Origin: Pseudomonadota bacterium
GTDB lineage: Bacteria > Pseudomonadota > Gammaproteobacteria > Steroidobacterales > Steroidobacteraceae
DNA: 64,000 bases
Assembly: GCA_018241445.1 (NCBI GenBank)
Contig: JAFEDT010000007.1
Span: 1-64,000 of the forward strand
Reading direction: 5' to 3'
Notes under the pieces: generated by a model
What the model was told of the DNA's origin: nothing
The model's database searches: none
What the model saw: the letters and a program-made list of their open reading frames with translations, nothing else
Translations under genes and position numbers: made by a program
Shown: one piece after another, positions 30,895 to 46,940 of the stretch
How the letters are laid out: every line of letters starts with the position of its first letter
How positions within the stretch are numbered: position 1 is the stretch's first letter

Positions 30895-33888
30895 TTACAG
30901 CACCTGCAGGGACAGCATGAACTCCGTCTTGGCCAGCCCGCCACCCGCGAACCCGCGCGCGGCCCCGAGCGACAGCATCATCGGCTGCCGGTGCATGACG
31001 TGCAACTGGAAATCCACCTGGCCGCCCACGTCGCGGGCGCTGTAGCGACGCCCGGAGGTGCCGAGGTTGGCCTGCAGGTCGCTGAAGAACAGTTCCGGGC
31101 GCGCCCAGCTCAGGTAGAAACCGGGGGAGCCGACGCCTTCGAAACGCAGCGGCGGCAGGCACCATTCCAATACACCCTTGATCAGCGACTTTCCGCTCAG
31201 GGCATCAAGGGAGAAGCCAGGCATGCTCAGCAGCTGGCGGTAGCGCTGCGCGCCACCGTTGATCTCGTTGTCCACGTAATTGTTGCCGAAAGCGCCCAGG
31301 TAGGCGTTGGCGAGCGGATTCCCGGGAGATCCGCCGGAGATGCTGGCCCCGGTGCGCAGCCAGATGGAGGAATGATCCAGCGGCAGGGGGAACCCGAGGT
31401 CCAGGGTGGCGGTGAGGCTCGGAATCAGTGCCCCTGCGGCACCATAGGCGTGCGCCTTGATGGACCAGCGATTCCCCGTTTCGTCGTCCACCGCACCGGG
31501 GGAGCGGCGGGCATCGACACTGACAAACCCGGCGTCGGCCTTGAAGAGATTCTTCGACGGCGAGGGCACGTTCTGGAAGCCCGGCAGGGAATCCAGCCCA
31601 CCGTAGTACGCCACCCGCGAGGTGAACTTGAAAGTGTACGGGGGATCGAAGGTGAAGTAGCGGTCGTAGCCCAGGTAGCCGTTGTAGCCGGTGAGCGCCC
31701 GCTTGGTGGGCCCGAACAGGTCGTAGAAATCCGCGCCGTTCCACGCGACGCCCGCGGTCCAGCCGCGGTGGCGCGCATTCATTGAGACGTGCAGCCGGTT
31801 CTTCGCCGCCAGGACGTGATCCGGGCTGTAGCTGGAATCGACGTCCAGTGAGTCAAAGCCAATCGGATCACTGAAGCTTGCATGCGCCCCGAGCGCCACC
31901 GAGTCCTGGAAGCCCTCGACCACGGGATACAGTGAATCCAGGGAGACCTTGGCGCGCTGATAGCGGCCCTGGCGCACGATCTGCGACTCGTACGGAACCG
32001 TGTCGGGATTCTGAGCGCTCCAGTGGGTGACTTCCGGATGCTTCTCCGCAACCTGCTGGCCCAGAAAATTGATCGCGCTCAAATCCTCGGTCGGGTGCAC
32101 CTCGATCTCCGCCGGCTCGAAGCCGGTCGCCGCGTAGCGCAGCACGATGAGTTTCGAGGGATCCGGCAGCGGCAGCGGCCGGAAAAAGCCGATTTCGGCG
32201 TTGCTGACCGCCTCGAGCTTTTCGGTGGCGATCTCGTAGCGATAAATATTCGACACGCCGGTGTAATAGCTGCTGCCATAGAGGTAGCGCCCGTCTCTCG
32301 AGAAGACGAAGCTCTCGGGAACCGCTGCGCCCATGGTCAGCGCGTGCAGCGGGGACCCGTCGCCCTGCTCGAGTGTGGCTGTCTGCACAACCCGCATCTG
32401 CCGCACCCGGGGAGCGCCAGGTCGGGGGCCCGGACCGGCCACAGAAAATGCCGCCAATTTGCCATCGGGAGAAAGATCCAGGTCCGAGGCTACCTCACCG
32501 GGGGGAAACAGGTATATCCCCTTCCACGTCGTATAGGGATAAGGGATTCGCACCATCTGGACCCGGCCGCGCGTCAGACGCAGGCCCCACAGCGAGCGAT
32601 CAACGGGATTGAAGACGATATCGCCAATGCGTGCGTCCTTGAGCAACAGGCGCGATTTCCCCGTTTGCAGGTCAAGCGCCATCAGGTTGCGATAGTTGGT
32701 GTTGTTCGTCGTGTAGAACAGTGTGCCACTGCGGGGATCATAGGCGAGGTAGGACACGACATAGCCGCGCGGATCCGTGACCTCGGCGAGCTCCCTGATG
32801 CGTCCGTCGTTGCGGCTGATCGAAACGATATGCGCCACCTGCCCGGGATACCTGATCGCCGCAAACAGGTGCGCGCCGTCGGCCGAGAGGTAGGCACGCG
32901 AGACGGCGCCGAGGCTGCGCTTTGTCAGGTCATGGTAACCCGTCACAGGATGCTCGTGAACCGACCTGAGGTTCTGCTCCTGAAAGCTGTGTTCAAAGTC
33001 GACCCACTGCTGCCACGCGACATCGAGGGGACGCCCAAATACCTGCTCGAACTGATCGGCGTAGTAGCGGCGACTGGCGGCGTCACGCCGCCACCAGTCC
33101 AGCAGCCGTTGTGGTCCGTAGGTAAGCGCCAGGTAATCGGCGAAGCGCGTACCGTACAGATAAGCATTGGCGCCGGTCTGGAAGTCGATCTCGGTGCCCT
33201 TCGACACCAGCCCGAGGGGATCGTAGAACTTCGCGTGATCGTGGACCATCGCCCGGAATACCATCTCGTCGTAGCCGCCTTGCGCACGGCCGACCCCCCC
33301 CATCAACCAGGTCTCGACAAACACCGCGCTGCCTTCCTGGTACCAGCGTGGGGCGGTATTGCGGGGCGTGGTCAGATAGCTGTACAGCAGCGTCTCCGGG
33401 TGAGTGCTGTCCACGTCCACCTTGCCGTGGAACAAGCGACGGAAGCGCTGGTCCTCGGGGCTGGCGCGCTCGGTGTCGGCCAGGTGCGTCGACTCGTGCA
33501 CGGAGAGCGCTGCGAAGCGTTCACCGGAGTTGAAGGTTTCGTAGGGAATGCCTGCCGCCGCGACCTCGAAGGTCACTCTGTTGCGCGGCGTCGTCATTGT
33601 GGAGGCATTGGTGAGATCGGTGTAATCGCTCAGGAACACATTGACCTGGCCGTCGGGGGTGTAGTCCAGGAGGCGGCGCTGTGCCGCCAGGGCGCTGAGC
33701 ATGCTTTGCGTGACGCGGGGAACGAGCCAGGATTCGGCCGGATCGTAGTAAACAATCCGCAACTCGCGAGTCTCGACGAACTTCAGATCCGCCGCGGCAA
33801 CCTGCACCGCGCAACAGGCTACTGCCAGCCCGGCGGCCAGACGCGCACCCGCTCCGCGCCCAAAGGCGCGCTGAAGTCCGTTATACAA
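30895..33888 (-). CDS. Exported zincin protease-like / β-propeller / outer-membrane barrel fusion
   Basis: 997 aa. A signal peptide (to about residue 33) precedes a gluzincin-like domain with HESTH (131-135, HExxH) and a downstream Glu in APRWYQEGSAVF (E186), as in peptidase MA-like proteins. Residues ~330-640 are WD40/TolB-type propeller repeats (SRAYLSADGAHLFAAIRYPG, LDLSPDGKLAAFSV, FVFSRDGRYLYGSSYYTG). Residues ~680-997 alternate in the manner of a β-barrel and end in a hydrophobic C-terminal strand (FMLSLQVL), as outer-membrane proteins do. The only start is TTG 33888, with no clear Shine-Dalgarno and a terminator directly upstream; the true start could be a few codons later at a CTG. Likely a surface-anchored protein-processing or binding factor; protease activity is inferred from motifs. 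Confidence 0.75.
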   Translation of the reverse strand: MYNGLQRAFGRGAGARLAAGLAVACCAVQVAAADLKFVETRELRIVYYDPAESWLVPRVTQSMLSALAAQRRLLDYTPDGQVNVFLSDYTDLTNASTMTTPRNRVTFEVAAAGIPYETFNSGERFAALSVHESTHLADTERASPEDQRFRRLFHGKVDVDSTHPETLLYSYLTTPRNTAPRWYQEGSAVFVETWLMGGVGRAQGGYDEMVFRAMVHDHAKFYDPLGLVSKGTEIDFQTGANAYLYGTRFADYLALTYGPQRLLDWWRRDAASRRYYADQFEQVFGRPLDVAWQQWVDFEHSFQEQNLRSVHEHPVTGYHDLTKRSLGAVSRAYLSADGAHLFAAIRYPGQVAHIVSISRNDGRIRELAEVTDPRGYVVSYLAYDPRSGTLFYTTNNTNYRNLMALDLQTGKSRLLLKDARIGDIVFNPVDRSLWGLRLTRGRVQMVRIPYPYTTWKGIYLFPPGEVASDLDLSPDGKLAAFSVAGPGPRPGAPRVRQMRVVQTATLEQGDGSPLHALTMGAAVPESFVFSRDGRYLYGSSYYTGVSNIYRYEIATEKLEAVSNAEIGFFRPLPLPDPSKLIVLRYAATGFEPAEIEVHPTEDLSAINFLGQQVAEKHPEVTHWSAQNPDTVPYESQIVRQGRYQRAKVSLDSLYPVVEGFQDSVALGAHASFSDPIGFDSLDVDSSYSPDHVLAAKNRLHVSMNARHRGWTAGVAWNGADFYDLFGPTKRALTGYNGYLGYDRYFTFDPPYTFKFTSRVAYYGGLDSLPGFQNVPSPSKNLFKADAGFVSVDARRSPGAVDDETGNRWSIKAHAYGAAGALIPSLTATLDLGFPLPLDHSSIWLRTGASISGGSPGNPLANAYLGAFGNNYVDNEINGGAQRYRQLLSMPGFSLDALSGKSLIKGVLEWCLPPLRFEGVGSPGFYLSWARPELFFSDLQANLGTSGRRYSARDVGGQVDFQLHVMHRQPMMLSLGAARGFAGGGLAKTEFMLSLQVL

Positions 33889-33975: not shown

Positions 33976-34560
33976 TCACCTGTTACCGGCCTGCCCGTTG
34001 AGCGCCTTGTTGCCAGCCTGTCCATCGAGCGCCTTGTTGCCAGCCTGTCCATCCAGGGCCTTGTTGCCACCCTGGCCGTCGAGTCCCTTGTTGCCGGCCT
34101 GTCCATTCAAGGCCTTGTTGCCGCCCTGGCCATCCAGGGCCTTGTTGCCACCCTGACCGTCGAGTCCCTTGTTGCCAGCCTGTCCATTGAAGGCCTTGTT
34201 GCCGCCCTGGCCATCGAGTCCCTTGTTGCCACCCTGGCCGTCGAGACCCTTGTTGCCACCCTGGCCGTCGAGTCCTTTGTTGCCGCCCTGGCCGTCGAGT
34301 CCCTTGTTGCCACCCTGGCCGTCGAGTCCCTTGTTGCCACGGTTGCCATCGAGCCCCTTGTCGCCAGCGTTGCCCTGGGTGTCCGCACTGCGATCGTCGG
34401 CCGTGCCGTCCGAGCTGGCGCTGTCCGCTATCGCCCGCTTCGCTTCAACAATCGTTCCGGCAGCATCCTTGCCCGCAGGTCCCTCGTGATAGCTCAGGTA
34501 GGCGACCGCGCCGATTGCTACGGCGAGTCCGCCCGCCATCCATACTGTCTTGCTGGCCAT
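33976..34560 (-). CDS. Membrane-anchored collagen-like Gly-X-Y repeat protein
   Basis: 194 aa. An N-terminal membrane anchor (VWMAGGLAVAIGAVAYLSY) and a ~40-residue charged/serine-rich spacer are followed from about residue 65 by ~14 copies of a 9-residue unit, GNK-GLD-GQG. The register is Gly at every third position, as in collagen. In the C-terminal half some units read GNK-ALD-GQA or GNK-ALN-GQA, breaking the glycine register. No proline is present, so a triple helix would rely on Lys-Asp pairs. GGAGGG precedes ATG 34560. It lies 107 bases downstream of the anti-sigma gene and before a strong terminator, so it may be the output gene of the sigma operon. Confidence 0.7.
   Translation of the reverse strand: MASKTVWMAGGLAVAIGAVAYLSYHEGPAGKDAAGTIVEAKRAIADSASSDGTADDRSADTQGNAGDKGLDGNRGNKGLDGQGGNKGLDGQGGNKGLDGQGGNKGLDGQGGNKGLDGQGGNKAFNGQAGNKGLDGQGGNKALDGQGGNKALNGQAGNKGLDGQGGNKALDGQAGNKALDGQAGNKALNGQAGNR
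33985..34370 (-). repeat. 27-bp tandem repeats (~14 copies) inside the collagen-like gene
   Basis: The plus strand shows repeated GAGTCCCTTGTTGCCACC-CTGGCCGTC-type units of 27 bp with variants (GCCTTGTTGCCAGCC, GCCTTGTTGCCGCCC). Copies near 34200-34345 are nearly identical, whereas those at 33985-34130 have diverged. Such arrays expand and contract by slippage, so copy number should vary between strains. Confidence 0.85.
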
Positions 34561-34667: not shown

Positions 34668-35363
34668 TCAGGGCGAGCCGGATGCCCGCAGTGTCGCGCG
34701 CCCGATCTCCCTGCCCGCCATCAACACAGTCACGTCCACGCTCGTGGGAGCTGCAGGCGTCTCGGGCAAGGTAATTGTGGTGGCCGCACCGCCCGCGTGG
34801 CCACCCAGCCCCCTGATCCTGCGGGTCTGGCCGCCGGCCGTGACCAGGACATCCACCGGCCCCGGGGCCATGATCTGCAGCTTCACCTGCAGGGCGCGGC
34901 GGTGGCGGTACAGTCCGACGCGACCGGAAACGCCTTCACGTGCCAGCACCGCCTCGTCCAGCGGCGTGTGCGTGCCCGAATCGGCCATGGTGCCGGCCAG
35001 GTCGCCCAGGGCGCCGGGTCCCCGAACGGTGGTGAACACGATCGCGCCTGCAACCAGGACGCCGGCGGCGACCGCGGCGTAACGCCAGCGGTGCGCCGTG
35101 GACCAAGGCTGCAGCACCGGCGCCCACAGCCCGCCGCGCGGACGTTGCGGCGGCAGCGCAGCAAGGATCCGCTCGGGCAGATCGGCGGGAGGGTCGCTCT
35201 GCCCGGCCCCATCCAGCAGTCCGCACAGGCGGCGCAGCGCCTCCCGCTCGCCCCGCGCGGCCGGGTCGGCAAGCAGCTGGCGAGCCAGTTCAGCCCGTTC
35301 GGCAGTATCGAGTACCCCGTCGATCTCGCCGTGGATCAGCTCAGTGAGGCGTGGATCGCTCAT
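34668..35363 (-). CDS. Membrane anti-sigma factor
   Basis: 231 aa. The N-terminal cytoplasmic domain (residues 1-85: DPRLTELIHGEIDGVLDTAE ... LRRLCGLLDGAG) has the helical arrangement of anti-sigma domains (RseA-/zf-HC2-like but lacking the zinc Cys/His pair). It is followed by one membrane helix (YAAVAAGVLVAGAIVFTTV, about 95-113) and a ~115-residue periplasmic β-domain. It starts three bases after the ECF sigma gene, the usual coupling of sigma and anti-sigma. Release would require proteolysis or conformational change; the PrsW protease downstream is a candidate. Confidence 0.75.
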   Translation of the reverse strand: MSDPRLTELIHGEIDGVLDTAERAELARQLLADPAARGEREALRRLCGLLDGAGQSDPPADLPERILAALPPQRPRGGLWAPVLQPWSTAHRWRYAAVAAGVLVAGAIVFTTVRGPGALGDLAGTMADSGTHTPLDEAVLAREGVSGRVGLYRHRRALQVKLQIMAPGPVDVLVTAGGQTRRIRGLGGHAGGAATTITLPETPAAPTSVDVTVLMAGREIGRATLRASGSP

Positions 35364-35366
35364 GCT

Positions 35367-35909
35367 TCAGCTCGTCGCCTCGTACGGCAGCAGCTCGCTG
35401 CGCAGCAGCTGCCGGGCGGTGTGCAGCCGCGATTTAACGGTCTTTTCGGGAACAAGGAGAATGTCGCTCATGTCCTGGTAGCTCAGCTGCATCAGGTGCC
35501 GCAGCACGATCACCGAGCGCAGTTCGGGTGACAGGTGCATCAGGGCCTCGCCGATCGCCAGCCGCGCCTGGGCACCCTCGGCGCACCGTTCCGGTCCCGG
35601 GCTGCCGTCGATCTCGCGACCGTTGATCGCCTCCACGGGGCGGCGGGAGCTGAGGGCGTTGAGGGACTCGTTGAGGGCAATGCGGTAGATCCAGCTGTAG
35701 AACCTGTAGCGCGGGTCGTAATCTCCAAGGTGTTCGTAAGCCTTCAGGAACGTGGTCTGGGACACGTCGCGCGCGTCGTCGCGATCGTGCAGCATCCGCA
35801 GTGCCGCATTGAACACCGGCCTGTGGTAGCGAAGCACCAGCAGCTCGAAGGCATGGCGGTCCCCCTCCCGGCAGCGCCGGACCAGCGTGGCATCGTCGTC
35901 CCCGTTCAC
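35367..35909 (-). CDS. ECF-type RNA polymerase sigma factor
   Basis: 180 aa. Region 2 is ELLVLRYHRPVFNAALRMLH followed by 'DARDVSQTTFLKAYEHL' and 'YRFYSWIYRIALNESLNALS'. Region 4 is LMHLSPELRSVIVLRHLMQL, then 'SYQDMSDILLVPEKTVKSRLHTARQLLR' with the recognition helix. The two regions are typical of RpoE-like ECF sigmas. The start is GTG 35909 with no strong Shine-Dalgarno, so expression may depend on upstream translation. It is the only sigma factor in an operon of partner-switch genes, an unusual combination because RsbW-type kinases normally bind σB/σF-type factors. Confidence 0.88.
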   Translation of the reverse strand: MNGDDDATLVRRCREGDRHAFELLVLRYHRPVFNAALRMLHDRDDARDVSQTTFLKAYEHLGDYDPRYRFYSWIYRIALNESLNALSSRRPVEAINGREIDGSPGPERCAEGAQARLAIGEALMHLSPELRSVIVLRHLMQLSYQDMSDILLVPEKTVKSRLHTARQLLRSELLPYEATS

Positions 35910-35922
35910 AAGTACAGTCTGC

Positions 35923-35940
35923 GGCCCAAAAAGTTGGGCC
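35923..35940. terminator. Intercistronic hairpin between STAS and ECF sigma genes
   Basis: A 7-bp perfect stem GGCCCAA-AAAG-TTGGGCC starts at the stop codon of the second STAS gene and ends 13 bases before the sigma GTG. There is no T-run after it on the minus strand, so it is more likely an RNA-processing or attenuating hairpin than a full terminator. It may set the ratio of partner-switch to sigma products. Confidence 0.4.
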
Positions 35941-36233
35941 TAAGGCGCGCGGCTCATGTCGAAAATCTTGTCGAAGCCGGCATAGTGGAATACGTCGTGG
36001 ACCGGGGGCCTGACGTTGATCAGGCGCAGCCTGCCTCCGGCTGCGTGCACGCGCTTCTGGGTCAGCAGCAGCACGCGCAGCCCGGCACTGGCGATGTACT
36101 CCAGGCCCCCCAGGTCGATCTCGCGCGGCGCGGCGATACCGTTGAGGAACGCGAGCGCAGCATCGCTTTGGCTGGCGTCCAGGCGCCCGCTCATCAGCAC
36201 TTCACCCCCCTGCCCCATTCTTATGTCGAACAT
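35940..36233 (-). CDS. STAS-domain anti-sigma factor antagonist (second copy)
   Basis: 97 aa single STAS domain. The phosphorylation-site loop is DLGGLEYIASAGLRVLLL, with the conserved Ser before AGLR. The strand VLMSGRLDASQSDAALAFL leads into it. SpoIIAA/RsbV proteins bind the kinase when dephosphorylated and are inactivated when the kinase phosphorylates that Ser. This is the second STAS gene in the operon (the first is at 36667), so the module has two possible kinase partners with different set-points. It starts 20 bases after the kinase gene. Confidence 0.85.
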   Translation of the reverse strand: MFDIRMGQGGEVLMSGRLDASQSDAALAFLNGIAAPREIDLGGLEYIASAGLRVLLLTQKRVHAAGGRLRLINVRPPVHDVFHYAGFDKIFDMSRAP

Positions 36234-36253: not shown

Positions 36254-36670
36254 TTAAGGCTCGATGCGCCGGGTCATCCGCAGCCGGTTGTGCGCGCCCA
36301 CCCGCTGGTAGCTGACCGTATCCATCATACGCCGCACCAGGTGGATGCCGAGGCCCCCGACGGGGCGCTGCTCCAGGGGGCAGTCGACATCCGGGGGCGG
36401 CAGGGTGAGCGGATCGAATTGAGGACCGTCGTCTTCGACCGTCATGGTCACGCCGCCGTCAGCGACGGCGAGCGAGACCTCCACCCGGACGCGGGTCCCG
36501 CCGCGCGACCCGTGGGTCACGGAGTTGACAAAGATCTCCTCGAGCGCCACTTCGAAGGCGCTCGCCTGCGCGGCCGGCAGACGCTCGGCGGTCCAGAAGT
36601 CCTGCAGGAAGCGAGTCAGCTCCGGCAGCCTCGCCACCTCCCCCGGCACGGTGGCGTGGCGTCCGCTCAC
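36254..36670 (-). CDS. RsbW-like serine kinase / anti-sigma ATPase (HATPase_c)
   Basis: 138 aa from GTG 36670, overlapping the first STAS stop (GTGA). The GHKL motifs are intact: N box FEVALEEIFVNSVTHG, G1 box TMTVEDDGPQFDP, G2 box RPVGGLGIHLVRRMMD. Such kinases bind either a sigma/effector or a STAS antagonist, and phosphorylate the latter. A longer frame to 36871 exists but covers the STAS gene. The target here could be the ECF sigma, the membrane anti-sigma, or an unseen effector; the sequence does not settle it. Confidence 0.88.
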   Translation of the reverse strand: MSGRHATVPGEVARLPELTRFLQDFWTAERLPAAQASAFEVALEEIFVNSVTHGSRGGTRVRVEVSLAVADGGVTMTVEDDGPQFDPLTLPPPDVDCPLEQRPVGGLGIHLVRRMMDTVSYQRVGAHNRLRMTRRIEP

Positions 36671-37017
36671 CCTTGCGGCACCTGCGCAAGTGCCACACCG
36701 CGGTCGGCATATACCGTCACGATGCGGCTGAAGCCGCTCACGTCCAGGACGTCGCGAACCGCCGCCGTAAGCGAGCACAGGCAAAAGGCGATTCGCGCAC
36801 GCTGCGCGGCCTTCGCGGCTACCAGCAACACCCGCAGCCCGGCACTCGAGATGTACTGCAGAGCGGCGCAATCGATGACAACAGCAGGTGGCACCGAGCC
36901 TATCCCGGCCAGCACCAGCTCGAGCTGCTTCTGAAAGCCCTCGGCCGTGGCGAAATCGAGCCGGCCCTCGAGGATCACCACCGCCACCTTCCCCACCGTT
37001 TCCAGCCGCACGTTCAT
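36667..37017 (-). CDS. STAS-domain anti-sigma factor antagonist (first copy)
   Basis: 116 aa from ATG 37017, which overlaps the phosphatase stop codon (ATGA) and has GGAGGG six bases upstream. The STAS core is VAVVILEGRLDFATAEGFQK, with the phospho-acceptor loop DCAALQYISSAGLRVLLV; the Ser preceding AGLR is present. It is the natural substrate of the SpoIIE-type phosphatase and the GHKL kinase that flank it. It ends with 'YADRGVALAQVPQG'. Overlaps on both sides indicate tight co-translation with the phosphatase and the kinase. Confidence 0.88.
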   Translation of the reverse strand: MNVRLETVGKVAVVILEGRLDFATAEGFQKQLELVLAGIGSVPPAVVIDCAALQYISSAGLRVLLVAAKAAQRARIAFCLCSLTAAVRDVLDVSGFSRIVTVYADRGVALAQVPQG

Positions 37018-38228
37018 GAATCCCTCCATGTCAGTACCGACAGGGCGATGTCGTCCGACTGCGGCGCGTCGCCGGCGAAGCGCGTGACGCTGTTGCGGAT
37101 GCGATCGATGAGACCGGAAGCCGCGCCGCTGTCGTAGGCCTTGACCTCCGCGATCAGCCGCTCGACGCCGTAGGCCTCGTCGGTCGAATTGAAGGCCTCG
37201 GTCACGCCGTCGGTGAACAGCACCACGCGGTCCCCCGGCAGCAGCTGCAGAGAATGGGTTTCGAAACGGGAGTCGGCCATTGCGCCGAGCACCAGCCCAC
37301 CCGCGCCGTCCAAGGCATGCACCGAGCCGTCGGCACGCCTCAGGTAGGGGGGATTATGACCCGCATTCGCATAGCGCAGCAGTCCCGTGTGGGTATTGAG
37401 CATGCAATAGAACACCGTCACGAACAGGTCCATGGGATTTTGCGTGCACAGCACCTCGTTGGTGCGGTTCAGGCAGGTGCCCGGGTCGGGGCAGTGCGGC
37501 GCCAGTTCCCGCAGGTTGGTGCGCGCCACCGCCATGAAGAACGCCGCCGGCACGCCGTGGCCCGAAACATCCGCCATCACCAGTCCGATTTCCCCGCCCG
37601 GCAGCTCCATGAAATCGTAGAAGTCTCCGCCCATGGTGGTCGCCGGGATCATGCAGGCGGCGGCCTCGCACCCCGGCCGGTCGGGGAAACCCGCCGGCAG
37701 GATCGCTATCTGCATGGCGCGCGCCAGGTCGATCTCGGCCTTCAGTTGCGCCTGGGCGGCCAGCAGCGCGGCATTCTTCTGCGCGAGCTCGCGGGTGCGC
37801 TCCGCCACGGTGTGCTCCAGGAAGTGGGTCTGCAGCTTCAGCAGGCGCAGCAGGCGCAGCAGGCGCAGCGCCCGCAGCCAGCGCGCATCCAGTCCGATCA
37901 GGAAGAACGGCGCAATGGCCAGCAGATCGACCACGCCCTGGAAGCTTACGATGAAGGCAAGCTTTTTGGGCGCCGCCACGATGCGCAGCAGGTACTCGAA
38001 CGAGAACACTGCGACCACCACGACCTCGGCAACCCGCAGCACCGTCAGCAGCCACTGCGGCACCTGTGGCATCGCCTCGACGCCGATCGAGGCGACGCTG
38101 AAGACGATCAGGCCCACGATGAGATTTTCGAAGCCGGCGGCGTAGCGGCCCTGCGGCTCGAGCAACTGCTCCGCCAGGTGGTGCAGGCGCAGGTTGAACA
38201 GCTGCAGCGGGCGCAGCACGGCGCTCAC
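37014..38228 (-). CDS. Voltage-sensor-like membrane domain fused to a SpoIIE/RsbU-type PP2C phosphatase
   Basis: 404 aa. Four membrane helices match an ion-transport voltage-sensor domain: S1 ~33-52, S2 ~60-84 with Glu in SFEYLLRIVA, S3 ~93-112 with Asp in GVVDLLAIAP, and S4 ARWLRALRLLRLLRLLKL with charges at 116, 119, 122, 125, 128 and 131, every third residue. No S5-pore-S6 follows. S4 runs into a coiled coil (~135-172) and then the phosphatase (175-402), with its acidic metal ligands in TTMGGDFYDFM, LVMADVSGHGVPA, VVLFTDGVTEAF and APQSDDIALS. It presumably dephosphorylates the adjacent STAS proteins. GTG 38228 overlaps the preceding stop. The resemblance to voltage sensors is by pattern; voltage control is inference. 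Confidence 0.8.
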   Translation of the reverse strand: MSAVLRPLQLFNLRLHHLAEQLLEPQGRYAAGFENLIVGLIVFSVASIGVEAMPQVPQWLLTVLRVAEVVVVAVFSFEYLLRIVAAPKKLAFIVSFQGVVDLLAIAPFFLIGLDARWLRALRLLRLLRLLKLQTHFLEHTVAERTRELAQKNAALLAAQAQLKAEIDLARAMQIAILPAGFPDRPGCEAAACMIPATTMGGDFYDFMELPGGEIGLVMADVSGHGVPAAFFMAVARTNLRELAPHCPDPGTCLNRTNEVLCTQNPMDLFVTVFYCMLNTHTGLLRYANAGHNPPYLRRADGSVHALDGAGGLVLGAMADSRFETHSLQLLPGDRVVLFTDGVTEAFNSTDEAYGVERLIAEVKAYDSGAASGLIDRIRNSVTRFAGDAPQSDDIALSVLTWRDS

Positions 38229-40054
38229 GTGCCGGTCCCGCCCGGCGGCTCGTGTTCACGGTGGAAGCGGTGGATGGTCCACAGGTAGCTCTCCATGAGC
38301 GAGTCCCGGCCCAGTTCGGCCAGGATCTCCAGGCGGCGGCCGGCGGCCCCGGTGAGAGCCAGCTGTGCGCTGGCGCGGGAGTAGTGTTTGAGTTGATTGC
38401 GGTACTGCCACAGCAGCTCGCGGGTCGCCATCTTGTTCTGATGCAGCTCCCAGGAGCCGAGCGTCACGGCCATCAGGCCCACCCCGAAGGTCAGTATGGT
38501 TTGCACCGAAGCGCCGAGCAGCTCCCGCTCCTCGCCGGCCTTGCCGAGCACCAGCAGGATGGCGCACACCAGCAGGATGGTGCCGAACAGGAAGCGCTTG
38601 GCCCACTTGGTGCGCTCGCCACTGAGGTGCAGCTGCGCCACCTTCCTGACGAAGTAGCGTCGCTGGTTTTCGATCCAGGTCTGGTCGACGCCATTCTCCG
38701 GCGCATTGGTGCCGGCGGCGGCCTCCAGCTCGATGCGCGGCCACTCCAGGCCCACCAGTACGTGCCCGATCCAGCCGAAGCCGTGGAAGCGGTTGATGCC
38801 CGACAGGGACAGCACCTCGTGGGCGTTCACGTTCTGGTCGCAGCCGGCCAGGCGCAGGTAGAACTTCACGCGCAGCGTCTCGGCGAGCGCGCGGCACATC
38901 AGATGCTTGGCAAACCAGTGCCGCTCGTGCAGCACCAGGTACAGCAGCGCACTCGAACCGAGGATCAGCACGTAAGTCAGCAGCATGGTGCGTGTCGGCA
39001 GGAACTTCTCGTACACCAGGTACGCAAAGCCCATGACGAAGGCCACCAGGTTGAAGAAGGTGAACAACTGGTCTGAACGCTTCTGGAAGTAGATCGCCAG
39101 CCCGTCCGCCTTGCCGTACTGCGAGTCGATCCGCTCGATGGTATTGCGGTCGCGCGGGTCGATGCTGGTCTGGGCCGACAGCCCCGCGACCAGCGAGTCC
39201 GGCGGCCCCGGCCAGCGCCAGCTGTTGGCGAAACGCCGGTATTCCTTGTTGTAGGCGTTGAGGGATCTCAGGTGCACGTCCAGCCGGTGCGGCAGCTGCG
39301 GCAGCCTGACCAGCGCGTTGTCACTCAGGCCCGCCAGGAAGCAGGCTTCGCCGCCGACGGGCGTGCGCCCCGTCCGCGCCCGCCGCGCGGGGATCCAGTA
39401 GGCCAGCCTGTCCGGCAGGTCCTGGTCGGGAGCCGCATCGAAGAAGCGCAGCACCTGGTCGTCCTTGTTGCGGTCGGTGCGTACGTCGAGGTAGCGCAGC
39501 ACCGTGTCGGCGGTGCCGCCAGGCAGCAGCGAAGGCTCACCGTCCCACAATGTGATCAGCAGGCTGCAGCCGCGGATGAGAGTGCGCGTCAGGCCCGCAT
39601 AGTGCGCGTCTCTCATGGAGAGCCCGGCCGCGGCTGCGGCCTGTTCTTCGCGGGTGCCGAGCGGCAGTTCGATGAACCGCACGCCGGGGTTCGAGAGGAT
39701 GGTCTTCAGCTGCGCGAAGGAATCCTGATCGAAGTCGGACGCGTACTGCACCAGGGGCATGGGCAGCATCGCGTCCACACCGATTCCCATCTCCAGCGCC
39801 ACCTGCGCCACCAGCAGGTCCGCCCCCGTGGCCATCCCCGCCATGAGCCGCACCTCGGACTCCGGCAGACGCTGCAGCAGCTGACGCAGAATGCCCTGGG
39901 TCGCCTCGCGCAGGCGCGGCAGGCACTCGGGGTGCAGGTCACGGTGGCCGGAGACGCCAACGATGAACGGCGAGACGCGGTTATTGCTGTTGGTCAAAGT
40001 CGTGGCGAAAGGTTTGCGATCCGGGCACGCTTCATTCTGACGCCAACCCCACAT
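38225..40054 (-). CDS. SLOG-domain protein with four membrane helices (SLATT-like)
   Basis: 609 aa from ATG 40054 (GAGG nine bases upstream); a longer frame to 40222 would overlap the divergent TIR gene. The N-terminal Rossmann-like SLOG domain has FIVGVSGHRDLHPE and then MAGMATGADLLVAQVALEMG, the family's 'SGHR' and 'G-x-x-x-GAD' nucleotide-site motifs. Two helical hairpins follow: about 330-375 (TFFNLVAFVMGFAYLVY, LLTYVLILGSSALLYLVL) and about 485-535 (FLFGTILLVCAILLVLG, ILTFGVGLMAVTLGSW), as in SLATT proteins. SLOG/SLATT proteins have been predicted, from comparative genomics, to sense nucleotides and act on membranes in conflict systems. It is the first gene of the partner-switch operon (GTGA overlap with the phosphatase). 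Confidence 0.7.
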   Translation of the reverse strand: MWGWRQNEACPDRKPFATTLTNSNNRVSPFIVGVSGHRDLHPECLPRLREATQGILRQLLQRLPESEVRLMAGMATGADLLVAQVALEMGIGVDAMLPMPLVQYASDFDQDSFAQLKTILSNPGVRFIELPLGTREEQAAAAAGLSMRDAHYAGLTRTLIRGCSLLITLWDGEPSLLPGGTADTVLRYLDVRTDRNKDDQVLRFFDAAPDQDLPDRLAYWIPARRARTGRTPVGGEACFLAGLSDNALVRLPQLPHRLDVHLRSLNAYNKEYRRFANSWRWPGPPDSLVAGLSAQTSIDPRDRNTIERIDSQYGKADGLAIYFQKRSDQLFTFFNLVAFVMGFAYLVYEKFLPTRTMLLTYVLILGSSALLYLVLHERHWFAKHLMCRALAETLRVKFYLRLAGCDQNVNAHEVLSLSGINRFHGFGWIGHVLVGLEWPRIELEAAAGTNAPENGVDQTWIENQRRYFVRKVAQLHLSGERTKWAKRFLFGTILLVCAILLVLGKAGEERELLGASVQTILTFGVGLMAVTLGSWELHQNKMATRELLWQYRNQLKHYSRASAQLALTGAAGRRLEILAELGRDSLMESYLWTIHRFHREHEPPGGTGT

Positions 40055-40187
40055 GCCGGACAACCTCGGAAAACCGCCGCCCGCAGACGCCCCTGCCGGA
40101 GGGGCTTGTAGAGGCCAGCCGCGCGCTGCACACTCGCAAGGACAGGAGTCGCCTCCTCTCACGGACGACCGGCCCGCAGAATGACAG

Positions 40188-42431
40188 TTGAACTCATCGA
40201 ATCCGAAATACTGGGCGTTCATCAGCTACAGCCATCGCGATACGCGCTGGGCGTCGTGGCTGCACAGGGCGCTCGAGTCCTACCATCCCCCTAAACAGAT
40301 CGTAGGTACGGTCACCGCCCGCGGCGCGGTGCCCCGCAAGCTCTCGCCGGTCTTCCGCGACCGCGAGGAGCTGGCCACCTCCACCACGCTTGGTGACTCG
40401 CTCAACGCGGCACTGGCCGGCTCGCGCTGCCAGATCGTTATCTGTTCGCCAAGCGCGGCGCGCTCGCGCTGGGTCAACGAGGAAATCCTCGCCTTCAAGC
40501 GCCTGGGCCGCTCAGACCGGATTTTCTGTTTCATTGTCGACGGCGAACCCAACGCCTCCGACGACCCCGCGCAGGCCCAGCAGGAGTGTTTTCCGCCTGC
40601 CCTGCGCTTCGAGCTCGACCCCGACGGCAGCCTCAGCAGCCGGCGCACCGAGCCGATCGCCGCCGATGCGCGCCCGGGCAAGGACGGCCGCGGCAACGCG
40701 AAACTCAAGCTCATCGCCGGCATCCTCGGGGTTGGATTCGATGCCCTGCGCCAGCGGGAGCTGCATCGGCGCCAGCGACGGCTGTTCGCCATCGCCTCAG
40801 CAGCCGTCGCCGGCATGGTGCTCACGACCGGGCTCGCCACCGCGGCGCTCATCGCGCGCTCACAGGCGAAGCACCAGACCGTCATCGCCAGGCGCGAGGC
40901 GGAAACCGCGCGCCAGACCACTGAGTTCCTGGTCGACCTGTTCCGCATCTCCGACCCCACCGAGGCGCGCGGCAACAGCCTGACTGCGCGCGAGGTACTC
41001 GACAGCGGCGCGGCACGGGTCGGCCGGCAGCTCACTCATCAGCCGCAGGTTCAGGCCACCCTGATGGATACGCTGGGCACGGTGTACCTGGGCCTCGGGC
41101 TGTACCGCCAGGCGCAGCCGTTACTGGAAGCCGCCGCGCAGAAACGCCAGAGTCTGCGGCCTGCGCAACCGGCCGAAGTAGCGCTGTCGCTCAGTCACCT
41201 GGCCGATCTGCGCTCCTTCCGCGCCGACTACCCGGGTGCGGAGCAGGCCTACCGCCGCGCCATCGCCCTGCAGCGCGCGCTGCCTGCAGCGCAGCGCGAT
41301 GTGCCCGCGCTGGCGCGCACGCTGTACGGGCTCGCCAACGAGCTGGAGAACCGCGGGGAATTCCAGGAAGCCGAACGCACCCTGCGTGAAACCCTCACGC
41401 TGCAGGAAGAGGCGTTCCAGGGGGCGAACGAGGACACCGCGCGCACCCTGGCGCTGCTGGCCTGGACGGTGCAGCAGCGCAATCTGAACGAGGCTATCCC
41501 GCTCATGGAGCGCGCTACGGGCATGCAGCGGACGCTGTGGGGCACGACGCCCTATCCGGATTACGCTCACGCACTCAACGACCTCGGCCTCATGTACCGC
41601 GATCGCGGCGACTATGAGCGTTCCGAAACGCTGCTGCGGGAATCGCTGGCGATGGAACGGCGGCTGGTCGGGGACAAGCACCCCGACCTCGCGCTGATGC
41701 TGGACAACCTGGGAGTGGTGCAGGAGCGCCGCGGGAATCCTGCTGCCGCCGCGACCACCTTCCGCCAGGCCCTCGACATGCAGCGCGAACTGCTCGGGGA
41801 GACGCACCCGGACGTCGCCAATACCGTGGACTTACTGGCGAGCACCCTCTACGAGAGCGGCGACGTGAGTGCGGCGCTTGAGACCGAGCAGGAAGCGCTG
41901 GCCATCTACCGCAAGCTGTTCACTGGCGACAACCCCGACGTGGCGCGCCTGCTGAACCGACTCGGTTACTGGCTTACCGAGGCCGGCCGCTACCAAGCGG
42001 CCGACCTGGACCTCCAGGAGGCGCTCAAGATGCGGCAGCGCCTGTTCGGCCCGCACCACCCGGAGATCGCCAGCAGCCTGGTGCATGTCGGAATTCTTCA
42101 GGTCGCGACGGGTAAATACAGCGACGCGCAGGCCTCGGCGCGCGGCGCCGCCGGGATTTTCGGCAGGACGCTGTCGGCGGACAACTGGAAGACGGCCGTG
42201 GCGGACTCGATCGAGGGCGCAGCGCTGTGCGGCATGGGCCAGTATTCCGAGGCCGAAGAGCACCTGATACGCAGCTACGGCATCATCAGCCAGGACGCGG
42301 GCGCGATGCAGTACCGCGACCTGACACGCGGCTACCTGAAGACCCTCTACCAGCGCTGGGGGCGGCCACGCGAGGCGCAGCGTTACACCGCCGCAACCCG
42401 CTCACCGCCGTTTACGCATCCGGGCCACTGA
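40188..42431 (+). CDS. TIR domain / membrane helix / TPR repeat protein
   Basis: 747 aa. Residues 7-150 are a TIR domain: YWAFISYSHRDTRWASWLHR, 'VFRDREELATSTTLGDSL', then CQIVICSPSAARSRWVNEEI, where the second Glu occupies the NADase position (S-x-W-x-x-x-E). One membrane helix lies at about 203-225 (LFAIASAAVAGMVLTTGLATAALIA split over two turns). From ~250 to 735 there are about ten TPRs of the 42-residue kinesin-light-chain type (HPDVANTVDLLASTLYESGD, HPDLALMLDNLGVVQERRGN). TIR-TPR proteins are candidate NAD+-degrading or signalling effectors. It is divergent from the SLOG operon with 133 bp between, suggesting a shared regulatory region. Confidence 0.8.
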   Translation: MNSSNPKYWAFISYSHRDTRWASWLHRALESYHPPKQIVGTVTARGAVPRKLSPVFRDREELATSTTLGDSLNAALAGSRCQIVICSPSAARSRWVNEEILAFKRLGRSDRIFCFIVDGEPNASDDPAQAQQECFPPALRFELDPDGSLSSRRTEPIAADARPGKDGRGNAKLKLIAGILGVGFDALRQRELHRRQRRLFAIASAAVAGMVLTTGLATAALIARSQAKHQTVIARREAETARQTTEFLVDLFRISDPTEARGNSLTAREVLDSGAARVGRQLTHQPQVQATLMDTLGTVYLGLGLYRQAQPLLEAAAQKRQSLRPAQPAEVALSLSHLADLRSFRADYPGAEQAYRRAIALQRALPAAQRDVPALARTLYGLANELENRGEFQEAERTLRETLTLQEEAFQGANEDTARTLALLAWTVQQRNLNEAIPLMERATGMQRTLWGTTPYPDYAHALNDLGLMYRDRGDYERSETLLRESLAMERRLVGDKHPDLALMLDNLGVVQERRGNPAAAATTFRQALDMQRELLGETHPDVANTVDLLASTLYESGDVSAALETEQEALAIYRKLFTGDNPDVARLLNRLGYWLTEAGRYQAADLDLQEALKMRQRLFGPHHPEIASSLVHVGILQVATGKYSDAQASARGAAGIFGRTLSADNWKTAVADSIEGAALCGMGQYSEAEEHLIRSYGIISQDAGAMQYRDLTRGYLKTLYQRWGRPREAQRYTAATRSPPFTHPGH

Positions 42432-42596: not shown

Positions 42597-42713
42597 TCTC
42601 CGAATAAATAAACTCGCGGCTCCGCTCACGGTCGCGCCATAAGAACCAACCGTAGTGCCCCGCCCCGCGGATCGCCTGGCAGCCTCGGATCCGCTGCGAT
42701 GAAGGGGAAGGTT

Positions 42714-45700
42714 ATGTCAATGCAGCGCGCGATGACACTGGCCGGCGCCGTCCTGGCGACGGTGTTGGGATTCACCGCGACGGCGCCCGTGCACGCCCAG
42801 GCGCAGAACGCCGGCCGCAACCTCAACATCGCGGCGGTCAACCTGGACAACAAGAACGTCCTGCGGATCAACTTCCCGCCGTCGCCGGGAACGCCCTCGG
42901 ACTTCATCGGCAACACCGACCAATCGACGTTCGTGCGGCCGGAGGCGCTGGCATTCGTGACCAACGCCACGACCTTCCAGCTCGACCTGCTGATCGCCGA
43001 CAACCAGCGCGGCACCCTGTATCGCTACCCCGGCGCACTCACGGTCCAGACGCCGCCGAACCCGACCGCCGCGACCCTGGTGTGGAATTCCAACACCCAG
43101 GGCGCCGGCCCCACGGCGCCGGACGCGCTCGCCGTCGACGGGCTGGGCAATCTCATGGTGGCCAATTCGACCTCCGGTCACAGCGCCAATGCCCAGCTGT
43201 GGGAGTTCCCGGTCGGGGCCTCGGGCGCGGGATCCTTCGGTGCCCCGGTGCTGCTCGACAGCAATTTCCAGAACAAGGAGACGCTGCTGGAGGTCGCATT
43301 TGCGCCGACCGACGTGGCCGGCGCCACCGGGGTTTCCGGCGGCGACCTGCTCCTGCTCACCACCAGCCGCGTGCTGGCCTATTCGCGCGCCAGCGGCTTC
43401 ACCAGCCGCATCACACTCCTGAGCTTCCCCAACGGCTCGCCGGTGGCGGGCGGCATGGACTTCTGGCCGATCGGCAACGGCGCCGCGGCCAACTACAGCC
43501 TGCTGATCAGTTCCAGCGGCAGCAGCAGCATCAGCCGCTACTACTTCACCAACCCGCTCACGCCCGCGCCGGTGTTCGCCACCGGGCTCACCTCCCCTTT
43601 CAGGCTCAAGACCCTGTTCCAGGCGGGTGATCCACTGCTGTTCGTGTCCGAGAGCGGCGCCGTGCTGGAGTTCGGCGCCAATCCGGCCAACGGGTCGGGT
43701 GTGCTGCAGGCGAGCCTGATGCAGAACATCACGACGCCGCAGGGCTTCGCGGTGTCGAACGACTTCACCAACGCGGCAAGCGTGTGCCTGCAGGCGGGCG
43801 GCTGCAACCTGACGGGCCTGCTCGGTCACACGGTCAGCAGCAACATCACCACCCTGAACGGCGACATCGTCGAGGACGTCTGTACGGTCAACGCCGATCC
43901 GCGCGTCACCTTCGCAGGCGGTGCGTGGAGCTGCAGCGTGCCGTTCACGCCGCCGGCGGGCTTCACCTGTCCGCCGGGCACCCCCGCCAACGGGCCCGGT
44001 TGCCTGCCCGTGAATGCCATGTGCCCCGGCTTCGACGACACCGGTAAGATGGCGCTGCCGGACACCCTGTGCGGCCGGTCCGGCAAGACCGGCGCCGGGT
44101 TCTCCATCATCAAGACGCTGGTGACCCCCACCCAGTTCGTCGGCGGGCTGGTCGAGAACTCCGCCCTGCTGTCCGACGGCACCAATCCGGAGTGCGGTCC
44201 GAATACGCTGGCGGACCCCAACGCGGCGGACGGCGCCTTCCTGTTCGCACCGCTGAAGGCGGAAGGCACCATCCAGGAAGGCGCCAACGCCGTCGACATG
44301 ACCGACGGCTGTGGCACCGTGCATTCCAGCGGCGGGCACATGTCGATCTATATCGTCGGGCCATCGGTGAACGAGGCCGCGCCCGAGCTGAACCCGGCTG
44401 GCGGCCTGCGCCATCCGCTGGAGAATTTCGCCCAGATCAAGTACCAGAACCTCACCAGCACTGTCACCGGCTGGACCAACGCCTTCAACAACATCTCCGC
44501 GCCGGTGTCAGGGGCGCTGTGGGCCGGCAACGTGCCGCCCGCCAGCGGCAACCAGCCGTTCGGCTGCCTGGACAAGAGCTGGGCGCTGTTCTACGCCGCC
44601 ACGGTGCTCGATGCCGACGGCTCGCCGCAGGCCCGCGCGGATCTGCAGAACGCCGCCAACCTGCTGACCGATGCGGACTCCATCGGCAACAGCACCTGCG
44701 ATGCGATCGCGGTGGCGAACCCGAATGCCTTCTCGCAAACGCCGAACGCCACCTTCCCCAACGCGCCGACGGTGCTCAATCCGTTCGGCGAGTTCCGCGG
44801 GCGGGACGCCAACCTGTACTACAGCATCGACGTGCGGCTGCTCGGCAACGCCGCGCCCAACCACTGGCCGCTGCCGGTCAGCGTGAACGTGTCGCCGACG
44901 GCCGTAACGCTGCCCTCCGCCAACTCGCCGGGCAGCGCGACGCTCTTCTGGAACGTCCACGGCGCCAGCGGCTGCACCCTGAGCAGCTCCGACGGCGTCT
45001 ACGCGGGCGCAACGCTGGCCTCGCCGCAGTCGCTGACCATCCCGGTGGCCGATTCCGGCACCATCGTGGCCTACACCATCACCTGCGGCAGCGGACCCGC
45101 AGGCAACGCCGCCAACGCGGTCACGGCCTACGTCACGGTCTTCCCGCCGCCCACGGCCAGCGTCTCGCCGGCGGCCATCGTGCAGGGCGCGTCCTCGACA
45201 TTGAGCTGGAACACCAGCACCGCCCAGGGCTGCAGCGGAAGCTCCAACGATCCTTCCGCCGCTGGCTTCTTCAACAATGTGGCGCTGAACGGCAGCGGGT
45301 CGCACAGCGTGACGCCGACCGCCGCCGGCTCGTTCACCTACACGCTCGCCTGCACCAGTCCCGCGACTTCCGTTTCGGCGACGTTGACCGTGGTGGCGCC
45401 GCCCACGCTCACGGCATCGCCCTCGACTGTGACCCTGGGTGCGCCCTCCCCCTCCAACAGCGCCACGCTGACCTGGAACGAGAACGGCAACACCGGCTGC
45501 ACCTGGTCGAGCTCGGATGCGGGCTTCACGGCGCCCGCCGGCGCAAGCGGCACGCAGACTGTCACACCGCAGAGCGTCGGAACTGCCAGCTATACCCTCG
45601 CCTGCTCGACGCCCGGCCCGACTTCTCAGACGGTCAGCGTCACCGTGCAGGCGCAGCCACCGCTGATCAGCGTAGCGCCGAGCTCGATAATCCTGGGTTA

Positions 45701-46940
45701 CCCCGCGACGCTGCAGTGGACCGAGTATCCCGGCGACGTATGCACCCCGAGCAGCAGCGGCACCGACACCAACGCGGCGGACCGCTTCTCCGGCCCCATC
45801 GCGATGAGTGGCTCGATGCCGCTGACGCCCAACGCCACCGGCACCAACACCTACACGCTGACCTGCACGGTGCCGGCGGTGACTCGCTCGGCCACCCTGA
45901 CCGTCAACCCGCCGCCCACGGTCAGCGTCACGCCAGCGGCCCTCGTGCAGGGCGCGTCCTCGACATTGAGCTGGAACACCAGCACCGCCCAGGGCTGCAG
46001 CGGCAGCTCCAACGACCCGTCCGCCGCGGCCTTCAACGGGGCGCTGACCGGCACGGGCTCGAGCAGCGTGACACCGGCCGCCGGTTCGTTCACTTACACG
46101 CTCGCCTGCACCGGTCCCGCGACTTCCGTTTCGGCAACGCTGACGGTGGTGCCGGCGCCGACGCTCGGGATATCCCCCGCGACGATAACCCTCCCCGGCA
46201 GCGCCACGCTGACCTGGAACGAGAACGGCAACACCGGCTGCAGCTGGTCGAGCTCGGATGCGGGCTTTACGGCGCCCGCCGGCGCGAGCGGCACGCAGGC
46301 CGTTACTCCGCAGAGCGTCGGCACAGCCAGCTATACGCTGGCCTGCACGACGCCCGGCCCGACCTCAAAGACGGTCAGCGTCACGGTGCAGGCGCAGGCG
46401 CCGCTGATCAGCGTATCGCCCAGCTCGATTACCCTGGGTGACTCCGCGACGCTACAGTGGACGCAGTACAGCGGCGATGTGTGCACCGCAGGCAGCAGCG
46501 GCACCGACACCAACGCGGCGGACCGCTTCTCCGGCCCCATCACGATGAACGGCTCGATGGTGCTGACGCCCAACGCCACCGGAAATGACACCTACACGCT
46601 CACCTGCACGGTGCCGGCGGTGACTCGCTCGGCCACGCTGACCGTCAACCCGTCCCCGGCCATCATCAAGATCGCCGTGGTGCACAGCGGCTCCGAGATT
46701 GAAGTGCCCGACAGGGTAACGCTGACCTGGACAATCAGTGGTGGACCGGCCACCGGCTGCCAGGTGAGCGGCCAGTGGCCCTCCGGGGCCGTGCCGCAGT
46801 TCATACCCTTCCCTGTGTTCGCCAGCGGTACCAAGTCGCTGACGTACGCGACGCCCGGGACCTACACCTACACACTCAGCTGCACCAGCCCGGCGACGCC
46901 GGCAAAGACCAGCGTGTACGTCGAGCGGCGCGACGACTGA
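42714..46940 (+). CDS. Large secreted protein with C-terminal Ig-like repeats
   Basis: About 1408 aa. GGGGAAGG precedes ATGs at 42714 and 42720; an ATG at 42699 lacks a ribosome-binding site. The signal peptide ends near ATAPVHAQAQ. The N-terminal ~700 residues contain propeller-like strands (GTLYRYPGALTVQTPP, DALAVDGLGNLMVANST) and several Cys. From ~725 on, eight Ig-like domains of ~80-90 residues follow, each with two Cys and the pattern 'P-x-x-S-V-S-P-x-x-x ... LTW/LSW ... YTLxC'. Domains 2-3-4 are repeated as 5-6-7. No sortase or autotransporter domain is visible, so it is probably released or periplasmic; adhesion is a guess. It is monocistronic. Confidence 0.7.
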   Translation: MSMQRAMTLAGAVLATVLGFTATAPVHAQAQNAGRNLNIAAVNLDNKNVLRINFPPSPGTPSDFIGNTDQSTFVRPEALAFVTNATTFQLDLLIADNQRGTLYRYPGALTVQTPPNPTAATLVWNSNTQGAGPTAPDALAVDGLGNLMVANSTSGHSANAQLWEFPVGASGAGSFGAPVLLDSNFQNKETLLEVAFAPTDVAGATGVSGGDLLLLTTSRVLAYSRASGFTSRITLLSFPNGSPVAGGMDFWPIGNGAAANYSLLISSSGSSSISRYYFTNPLTPAPVFATGLTSPFRLKTLFQAGDPLLFVSESGAVLEFGANPANGSGVLQASLMQNITTPQGFAVSNDFTNAASVCLQAGGCNLTGLLGHTVSSNITTLNGDIVEDVCTVNADPRVTFAGGAWSCSVPFTPPAGFTCPPGTPANGPGCLPVNAMCPGFDDTGKMALPDTLCGRSGKTGAGFSIIKTLVTPTQFVGGLVENSALLSDGTNPECGPNTLADPNAADGAFLFAPLKAEGTIQEGANAVDMTDGCGTVHSSGGHMSIYIVGPSVNEAAPELNPAGGLRHPLENFAQIKYQNLTSTVTGWTNAFNNISAPVSGALWAGNVPPASGNQPFGCLDKSWALFYAATVLDADGSPQARADLQNAANLLTDADSIGNSTCDAIAVANPNAFSQTPNATFPNAPTVLNPFGEFRGRDANLYYSIDVRLLGNAAPNHWPLPVSVNVSPTAVTLPSANSPGSATLFWNVHGASGCTLSSSDGVYAGATLASPQSLTIPVADSGTIVAYTITCGSGPAGNAANAVTAYVTVFPPPTASVSPAAIVQGASSTLSWNTSTAQGCSGSSNDPSAAGFFNNVALNGSGSHSVTPTAAGSFTYTLACTSPATSVSATLTVVAPPTLTASPSTVTLGAPSPSNSATLTWNENGNTGCTWSSSDAGFTAPAGASGTQTVTPQSVGTASYTLACSTPGPTSQTVSVTVQAQPPLISVAPSSIILGYPATLQWTEYPGDVCTPSSSGTDTNAADRFSGPIAMSGSMPLTPNATGTNTYTLTCTVPAVTRSATLTVNPPPTVSVTPAALVQGASSTLSWNTSTAQGCSGSSNDPSAAAFNGALTGTGSSSVTPAAGSFTYTLACTGPATSVSATLTVVPAPTLGISPATITLPGSATLTWNENGNTGCSWSSSDAGFTAPAGASGTQAVTPQSVGTASYTLACTTPGPTSKTVSVTVQAQAPLISVSPSSITLGDSATLQWTQYSGDVCTAGSSGTDTNAADRFSGPITMNGSMVLTPNATGNDTYTLTCTVPAVTRSATLTVNPSPAIIKIAVVHSGSEIEVPDRVTLTWTISGGPATGCQVSGQWPSGAVPQFIPFPVFASGTKSLTYATPGTYTYTLSCTSPATPAKTSVYVERRDD
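45148..46650 (+). repeat. Direct duplication of a three-Ig-domain block (~0.75 kb each)
   Basis: Block A starts at about 45148 and block B at about 45911, and the two are largely identical over long stretches. Both contain the 18-residue stretch QGASSTLSWNTSTAQGCS and later the shared segments TLTWNENGNTGC and SSDAGFTAPAGASGTQ. The offset is about 762 bp, with small in-frame deletions in block B. This is a recent in-frame tandem duplication inside the secreted-protein gene. Confidence 0.85.

Follow-up and report, generated by a model that had tools for sequence, protein, structure and literature searches.

Several described proteins come close to parts of the one reported here. In the RsbU switch, linkers form a short coiled coil which unites two phosphatase domains, and a similar dimer with crossing linkers has been seen in crystals of RssB; many predicted linkers of such phosphatases carry unfavourable polar residues at a and d positions (PMC12143880, cited like all papers here from the parts consulted). 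The sensors named for RsbU-class phosphatases in these parts are the RsbU N-terminal domain, PAS, receiver, GAF and HAMP domains, a voltage sensor not being among them. Voltage-sensing phosphatases (VSPs) of animals are stimulated by positive potentials (PMC4322731). Here we describe a gene, VSD-PP2C, in which a pore-less voltage-sensor domain (VSD, helices S1-S4) is joined to a complete SpoIIE/PP2C domain. It lies in a stretch of 64,000 nucleotides, hereafter the window, comprising positions 1 to 64,000 of contig JAFEDT010000007.1 (assembly GCA_018241445.1) of a bacterium of the Steroidobacteraceae. We consider it probable that the encoded protein is a phosphatase controlled by the membrane potential and likely acting on neighbouring STAS proteins.

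A voltage-sensor domain in the sensor slot of a phosphatase

The gene and its parts were delimited as follows, ORF denoting an open reading frame:

37014..38228, minus strand: VSD-PP2C gene, 404 amino acids with a GTG start; ORF reading, Pfam PF00520 and PF07228
38070..38132, minus strand: S1 helix, about residues 33-53; AlphaFold2 helix 30-51, Ion_trans match from residue 33
37971..38057, minus strand: S2 helix, residues 58-86, with E68, F75, E78 and R82; invariant in 220 of 220 relatives, aligned to S2 of Kv3.1 and Kv1.2
37893..37943, minus strand: S3 helix, residues 96-112, with D101; found in 220 of 220 relatives and 18 of 18 channel segments
37824..37886, minus strand: S4 helix, residues 115-135, with R116, R119, R122, R125, R128 and K131; each kept in 219-220 of 220 relatives
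37698..37823, minus strand: helical linker, residues 136-177; within the model helix 115-175, heptad hydrophobicity and conservation
37014..37697, minus strand: SpoIIE/PP2C domain, residues 178-404; PF07228, D202, D205, D220, D340, D392 and D393, PDB matches

A Pfam search assigned Ion_trans (PF00520) to residues 33-136 (profile positions 4-112 of 241, 53 bits against a cut-off of 25) and SpoIIE (PF07228) to residues 210-401 (profile positions 1-191 of 192, 188 bits). An S5-S6 pore was not found after S4, where the Ion_trans match ends at profile position 112 of 241 and the chain continues as a helix to residue 175 and then as PP2C. In pore channels of the same bacterial family the match ends at profile positions 232-240, whereas it ends at 108-112 in the five VSD-PP2C proteins detected there. 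The full-length AlphaFold2 model, based on 55 sequences, has a mean predicted local distance difference test score (pLDDT) of 82 and a predicted template modelling score of 0.63. Its helices are 30-51, 58-85, 96-110 and 115-175, the last one holding both S4 and the linker, and the blocks of the VSD have pLDDT values of 57-79. Since a fold search with the whole model gave only phosphatases among the matches listed, the VSD was modelled alone (residues 1-150, 18 sequences, mean pLDDT 85.6). The 50 PDB matches then listed were all voltage-gated channels. By sequence, the VSD matches Kv, Nav, Cav and BK channels (best 60 of 76 matches listed), and an alignment places the S4 charges R119 to K131 in register with those of Kv3.1.

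To follow these residues through the relatives of the protein, the best 120 of 5425 and the best 120 of 7721 matches of protein searches were merged into 217 proteins. Together with three further genomic loci they gave 220 sequences, which fall into 35 clusters at 80% identity; three rows (P0129, P0132, P0197) have gaps somewhere in residues 33-115. According to precomputed Pfam annotations, PF00520 and PF07228 are both present in every relative among the matches listed. Residues E68, F75, E78, R82, D101, D114, R119, R125, R128 and K131 are kept in all 220 sequences, R116 and R122 in 219, the sole exception being the disrupted row P0208. T134 is retained in 210 (Arg in eight, Ser in two) and E51 in 202. 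Invariant columns make up 16 of the 103 of the VSD. The window protein has a charged residue in nine of them compared to seven of the 87 others (Fisher's exact test, one-sided p = 3e-5, a value that serves as a guide only because the relatives are related and not independent). At five genomic loci, the codons of five of the six S4 charges and of D101 vary synonymously with the residue fixed, and R116 is encoded by CGC in all five. Due to the charged invariant columns and the synonymous variation of the S4 codons, the S4 charge pattern, as far as aligned sequences can tell, is not a product of chance.

For comparison, 18 bacterial channel segments were chosen by their PF00520 match alone. F75, D101, R122, R125 and R128 are common to all of them. 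E78 is present in 17 (Asp in one), I41 in 16, E51 in 15 (Asp in three) and R82 in 12 (Lys in five). At the position of K131 ten segments have Lys and eight Arg, at that of R119 ten have Arg and eight a gap, and at that of E68 four have Glu and 12 Asp. D114 and R116 are not common to the 18 segments. From this control it can be inferred that VSD-PP2C retains the core of the channel sensors and has D114 and R116 as additions of its own. The S1-S4 charge pattern is that of voltage-gated potassium channels. In an earlier set, five VSD-PP2C proteins and 13 channel sensors shared invariant I41, F75, D101, R119, R122, R125 and R128. The 13 segments, five of them first sensors of tandem-sensor channels, had been picked from 16 usable ones by a required S4 motif (R..R..R..[RK]), with L047 (a duplicate), L129 and L136 omitted, the last two for no compelling reason. 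As the motif was required at selection, the S4 part of this result was built in, and the comparison was set aside as biased evidence on S4 and replaced by the 18-segment control.

The linker has a constant length in VSD-PP2C proteins. Its heptad a positions are V141, L148, L155, L162, A169 and I176 with a mean hydropathy of 3.7, and its d positions are L137, R144, K151, A158, E165 and M172, of which R144 and E165 are kept in 220 of 220 sequences. In the phosphatase, D202, D205, D220 and D340 are likewise kept in all 220 sequences and D392 and D393 in 219; presumably these conserved Asp residues bind metal as in PP2C enzymes generally. Sequence and fold searches gave the RsbU domain of Rv1364c, SiaA, RssB and SpoIIE as the best solved matches. 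Residues 147-400 align to residues 137-390 of Pseudomonas aeruginosa RssB, free of gaps from linker residue 147 to about 249, and the structural match to RssB extends from residues 119-121 to 401-402.

These data bear out the architecture proposed in a first-pass annotation of this DNA, which had described a pore-less voltage sensor with a PP2C phosphatase (supported by the Pfam domains and the lack of S5-S6; the strand, which it left unstated, is minus) and S4 running through a coiled coil into a complete phosphatase (helix 115-175, the heptad and the full PF07228 match). The counter-charges it had named are present, Glu in S2 (E68, E78) and Asp in S3 (D101), as is Arg or Lys at 116, 119, 122, 125, 128 and 131, every third residue of S4. 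Homologs have lost neither the S4 charges nor the S2 and S3 acids (219-220 of 220), and both the sequence and the fold of the domain align to voltage-gated channels rather than to a fold of another kind.

The four nearest phosphatases without a VSD are 53-63% identical over the matched part and possess other sensors instead: a receiver domain (L080), dCache/sCache with HAMP (L081, L083) and PAS (L082). The receiver version can be aligned gap-free over the 40 residues that precede the phosphatase, 19 of them being identical; identity ceases at S4, where two of 20 agree. Since receiver, PAS and Cache-HAMP are found in the same place of sister phosphatases, the VSD occupies a sensor slot; by alignment, it stands at the input-domain position of its phosphatase group. 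The gene of the receiver version is located directly after a 1201-amino-acid ORF reading like a hybrid histidine kinase. The L080 and L081 genomes have a similar flank (SPOR, BirA, PlsY and HemH-like ORFs by reading) and differ in the sensor, receiver versus Cache-HAMP.

Neighbouring genes and distribution

Downstream of VSD-PP2C, genes of a partner-switching module and of an extracytoplasmic function (ECF) sigma factor were identified:

36667..37029, minus strand: STAS protein 1 (STAS1), anti-sigma-factor antagonist type; PF01740 and TIGR00377 over cut-off, Ser in S-A-G-L
36254..36676, minus strand: RsbW-type HATPase kinase, start uncertain; PF13581 with 101.6 bits on the longer ORF 36254-36871, N-box pattern
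35940..36233, minus strand: STAS protein 2 (STAS2); PF13466 and TIGR00377 over cut-off, Ser in S-A-G-L
35367..35909, minus strand: ECF sigma factor; Sigma70_r2 and r4_2, TIGR02937 over cut-off
34668..35363, minus strand: predicted anti-sigma of the ECF factor; NF052375 and PRK13920 below cut-offs, no Pfam match, position

VSD-PP2C shares 4 nucleotides at its start with the stop of the preceding gene (38225-40222) and 16 nucleotides at its end with STAS1. Owing to these overlaps, the three genes very probably form a single transcript. STAS and RsbW-type kinase genes are close by in all five genomic VSD-PP2C loci, so that the adjacent STAS proteins of the first-pass annotation are confirmed by PF01740, PF13466 and TIGR00377 both in the window and across the five loci. 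The window, L003 and L077 share the gene order VSD-PP2C, STAS1, kinase, STAS2, ECF sigma factor, anti-sigma and a repeat protein, the genes of L003 and L077 being 42-70% identical to their window counterparts and the position of the anti-sigma after the sigma gene being kept. L002 and L076 have VSD-PP2C followed by a SLOG-like gene, STAS and kinase, with 23-29% identity of STAS and kinase to those of the window. An ECF gene was not found in the retrieved flanks of L002 and L076 and is thus present in three of the five loci. The serine of the STAS proteins stands in the pattern S-[AS]-G-L in the window, L003 and L077; in L002 and L076 this pattern was missed, and the site reads A-S-I-G by eye. 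A relative of 526 amino acids (P0212) is annotated as carrying VSD, PP2C and STAS in one chain. It was not used as a Rosetta-stone fusion, since its phosphatase end is off the normal reading and lacks D392-D393, for which a frameshift in overlapping genes is the most likely cause.

The gene at 38225-40222 (minus strand) encodes 665 amino acids. Its product contains hydrophobic stretches resembling transmembrane helices and gives a weak, SLOG-like match at the N-terminus (PF10686, E 0.06, below cut-off). The true start of the gene is probably further in because the listed start overlaps a divergent gene. It may belong to the system, as homologs with 38-39% identity are located directly after VSD-PP2C in L002 and L076. 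Divergent from the operon, a TIR and TPR repeat protein is encoded at 40188-42431 (plus strand). A SAVED/TIR model of PADLOC matches it weakly, and its homologs in L002 and L076 lie next to VSD-PP2C and are 55-56% identical; the SLOG-like and the TIR-TPR gene are both present in three of the five loci. Positions 42699-46940 (plus strand) encode a predicted exported protein of 1413 amino acids with long internal repeats, weaker relatives of which (26-27%) adjoin VSD-PP2C in L002 and L076. After the anti-sigma gene, positions 33976-34560 (minus strand) encode a protein of collagen-like GNKGLDGQG repeats whose N-terminus is hydrophobic; L003 and L077 retain its N-terminal part. A large predicted exported protein at 30895-33888 (minus strand) is 65% identical to its same-place counterpart in L003 and is a possible target of the ECF factor.

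Full-length VSD-PP2C was detected in five of 150 genomes of the family, in two of 196 of the order (its own and one of the same genus), in one of 369 of the class and in one of 398 of the phylum (its own in each case), the four samples overlapping. Outside the family, none was found among the matches listed for these samples of the order, class and phylum, whose listings comprise matches with E up to 1e-40 and few scored candidates per genome. Two phosphatases of 539 amino acids starting at model positions 84-87 (G813, G837) were rejected, their membrane part reading as one without the S4 charge ladder. In a scan of named genomes, two of 17 loci had a VSD, both from metagenome-assembled genomes of Gammaproteobacteria with palsa in the isolate name, and one relative is labelled Steroidobacteraceae. 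No protein of the window genome (98.7% complete) other than VSD-PP2C matches Ion_trans or strongly matches SpoIIE, for which there is one further hit just over the cut-off.

PF00520 matched in 156 of 339 genomes of the class, mainly as full channels among the matches listed, and in 30 of 150 of the family. The class listing stops short of the weak matches and so speaks neither for nor against other VSD-effector fusions. According to the profile match, those confined to S1-S4 in the family were the five VSD-PP2C proteins, the first sensors of tandem-sensor channels, G021, G126 and G132. L121, L124, L125, L126 and L127 are channels with two voltage sensors per frame, the first of which has no pore of its own. 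A confined match in G012 (C33, L147) was rejected because it is a truncated version of the first half of such a tandem-sensor channel.

Proposed mechanism and alternative explanations

Control of the phosphatase by the membrane potential, which we infer, could proceed as follows. The protein would dimerise through the coiled coil of its linker, a mode of dimerisation reported for RsbU and RssB and also, with the coiled coil that lies below S4, for Hv1 and TMEM266. Loss of the potential would move S4 outward and, as S4 and the linker are predicted as one helix, this movement would shift or twist the coiled coil, thereby altering the packing of the two phosphatase domains. Activity on depolarisation is the most likely sign, because animal VSPs respond to positive potentials in this way and partner switching of Mycobacterium smegmatis responds to blocked respiration (PMC7693655). 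The active phosphatase would strip the phosphate which the RsbW-type kinase had placed on the STAS serine, and the freed STAS protein would find another partner and transcription would change, at the ECF loci probably via the ECF sigma factor. The core of this proposal is the potential-driven shift of S4 and the coiled coil together with STAS dephosphorylation, whereas the sign and the exact sigma target are its weakest parts. As no other Ion_trans protein was found in the window genome, voltage sensing would here be a means of gene control rather than of excitability.

It is conceivable that S1-S4 is only a membrane anchor or dimerisation module, its S4 charges being needed for folding, and that the phosphatase is controlled otherwise, for instance by a partner bound to the linker. 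There is a precedent in RsbU, which is controlled by its partner RsbT binding to the linker (PMC12143880), but a plain anchor needs no E68, F75, E78, D101 and S4 charges across 35 clusters. Five of those positions are moreover common to all 18 channel segments, and charged residues stand at nine of the 16 invariant VSD columns. Movement with voltage has been shown for TMEM266, which likewise is a pore-less S1-S4 protein with a coiled coil and has no known role (PMC6392501). We regard an anchor as an unlikely explanation. Conduction of protons or other ions by S1-S4, with the phosphatase answering a local change of pH or ions or regulating the channel, is suggested by Hv1, in which a coiled coil follows a pore-less S1-S4 (PMC6392501), and by the fact that some isolated VSDs pass ions (PMC10651576). 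The VSD of the window, however, aligns to Kv, Nav, Cav and BK, no Hv1 chain occurring in the best 60 of 76 sequence matches or the 50 fold matches listed. Hv1 proteins have the S4 signature R-x-W-R and an Asp in the middle of S1, whereas the present protein reads R116-W117-L118-R119 and has no Asp in residues 33-51, which makes conduction very improbable.

Voltage could also be sensed as proposed, with the STAS and RsbW-type proteins acting on something other than the ECF factor, be it the SLOG-like membrane protein or an element elsewhere. Two of the five loci are without an ECF gene in their retrieved flanks, yet contain STAS, kinase and SLOG-like genes, and the ECF factor has a predicted anti-sigma of its own. 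On the other hand, STAS2 directly precedes the ECF gene in three of the five loci as part of one conserved run with 42-70% identity, and such another output appears rather improbable.

Comparison with known systems

VSD-PP2C may well be the first voltage-gated protein phosphatase, in which a potassium-channel sensor placed in a partner-switching slot would convert the membrane potential into phosphorylation and sigma factor activity without an ion current. Bacterial membrane potential varies with stress and between cells. Among the open papers listed no protein was found that reads it through a voltage-sensor domain directly into gene control. If the proposal is true, there is a direct route from membrane voltage to bacterial gene expression made of simple parts, namely one sensor protein, one kinase and two STAS proteins; the voltage-sensor-plus-phosphatase design arose independently of the animal VSPs; and a phosphatase for protein substrates that is set by voltage would be useful also as a tool.

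No report of a bacterial voltage-sensor enzyme was found among the listed papers of the open PubMed Central literature (in one case the first 25 of 157), subscription papers and bioRxiv lying outside this scope, and a term search of a survey of bacterial PP2C domains (PMC12088040) met neither voltage nor channel nor ion transport. The first-pass annotation had known of no characterised bacterial example. This statement agrees with the open papers listed, in which no description was found, but the domain pair already stands in the Pfam annotations of the 217 listed proteins. A known kind of sensor is thus combined with a known kind of enzyme in a pairing for which the open papers listed gave no description.

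The layout of the animal VSPs, to which the gene had been likened, is matched in the order of its parts and not in its enzyme. Ci-VSP/TPTE proteins likewise consist of a pore-less S1-S4, a linker and a cytosolic phosphatase, but theirs is PTEN-related and acts on phosphoinositides (PMC4322731, PMC13095418), whereas the phosphatase described here is a PP2C enzyme, predicted to act on protein serine, behind a long coiled-coil linker. Membership in the VSP/TPTE group was rejected, since the Pfam matches after S4 are SpoIIE and, below threshold, PP2C_2, a PTEN-like family not being among them. The relation is an analogy and not membership, the catalytic domains being unrelated. Hv1 and TMEM266 likewise lack a pore after S1-S4 and extend S4 into a coiled coil through which they dimerise (PMC6392501). 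They have no enzyme, Hv1 conducts protons, and VSD-PP2C matches Kv-type channels; assignment to Hv1 was rejected on the S4 motif and the mid-S1 Asp. Neither an Hv1 nor a VSP chain was among the matches listed in the sequence and fold searches with the VSD, which is a weak absence.

Adenylyl cyclases with a channel domain from the protozoa Plasmodium, Paramecium and Tetrahymena resemble VSD-PP2C in that a voltage-sensor domain is fused to a signalling enzyme, but they are eukaryotic and their enzyme is a cyclase. Bacterial Ion_trans channels have the same S1-S4 with F75, D101, R122, R125 and R128 and, unlike VSD-PP2C, continue to S5-S6. With the RsbU/RsbP/SpoIIE/RssB family, the protein has in common the PF07228 domain with its conserved Asp residues, the helical heptad linker and the adjacent STAS and RsbW-type genes. 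What separates it from this family is its sensor, which is a voltage-sensor domain.
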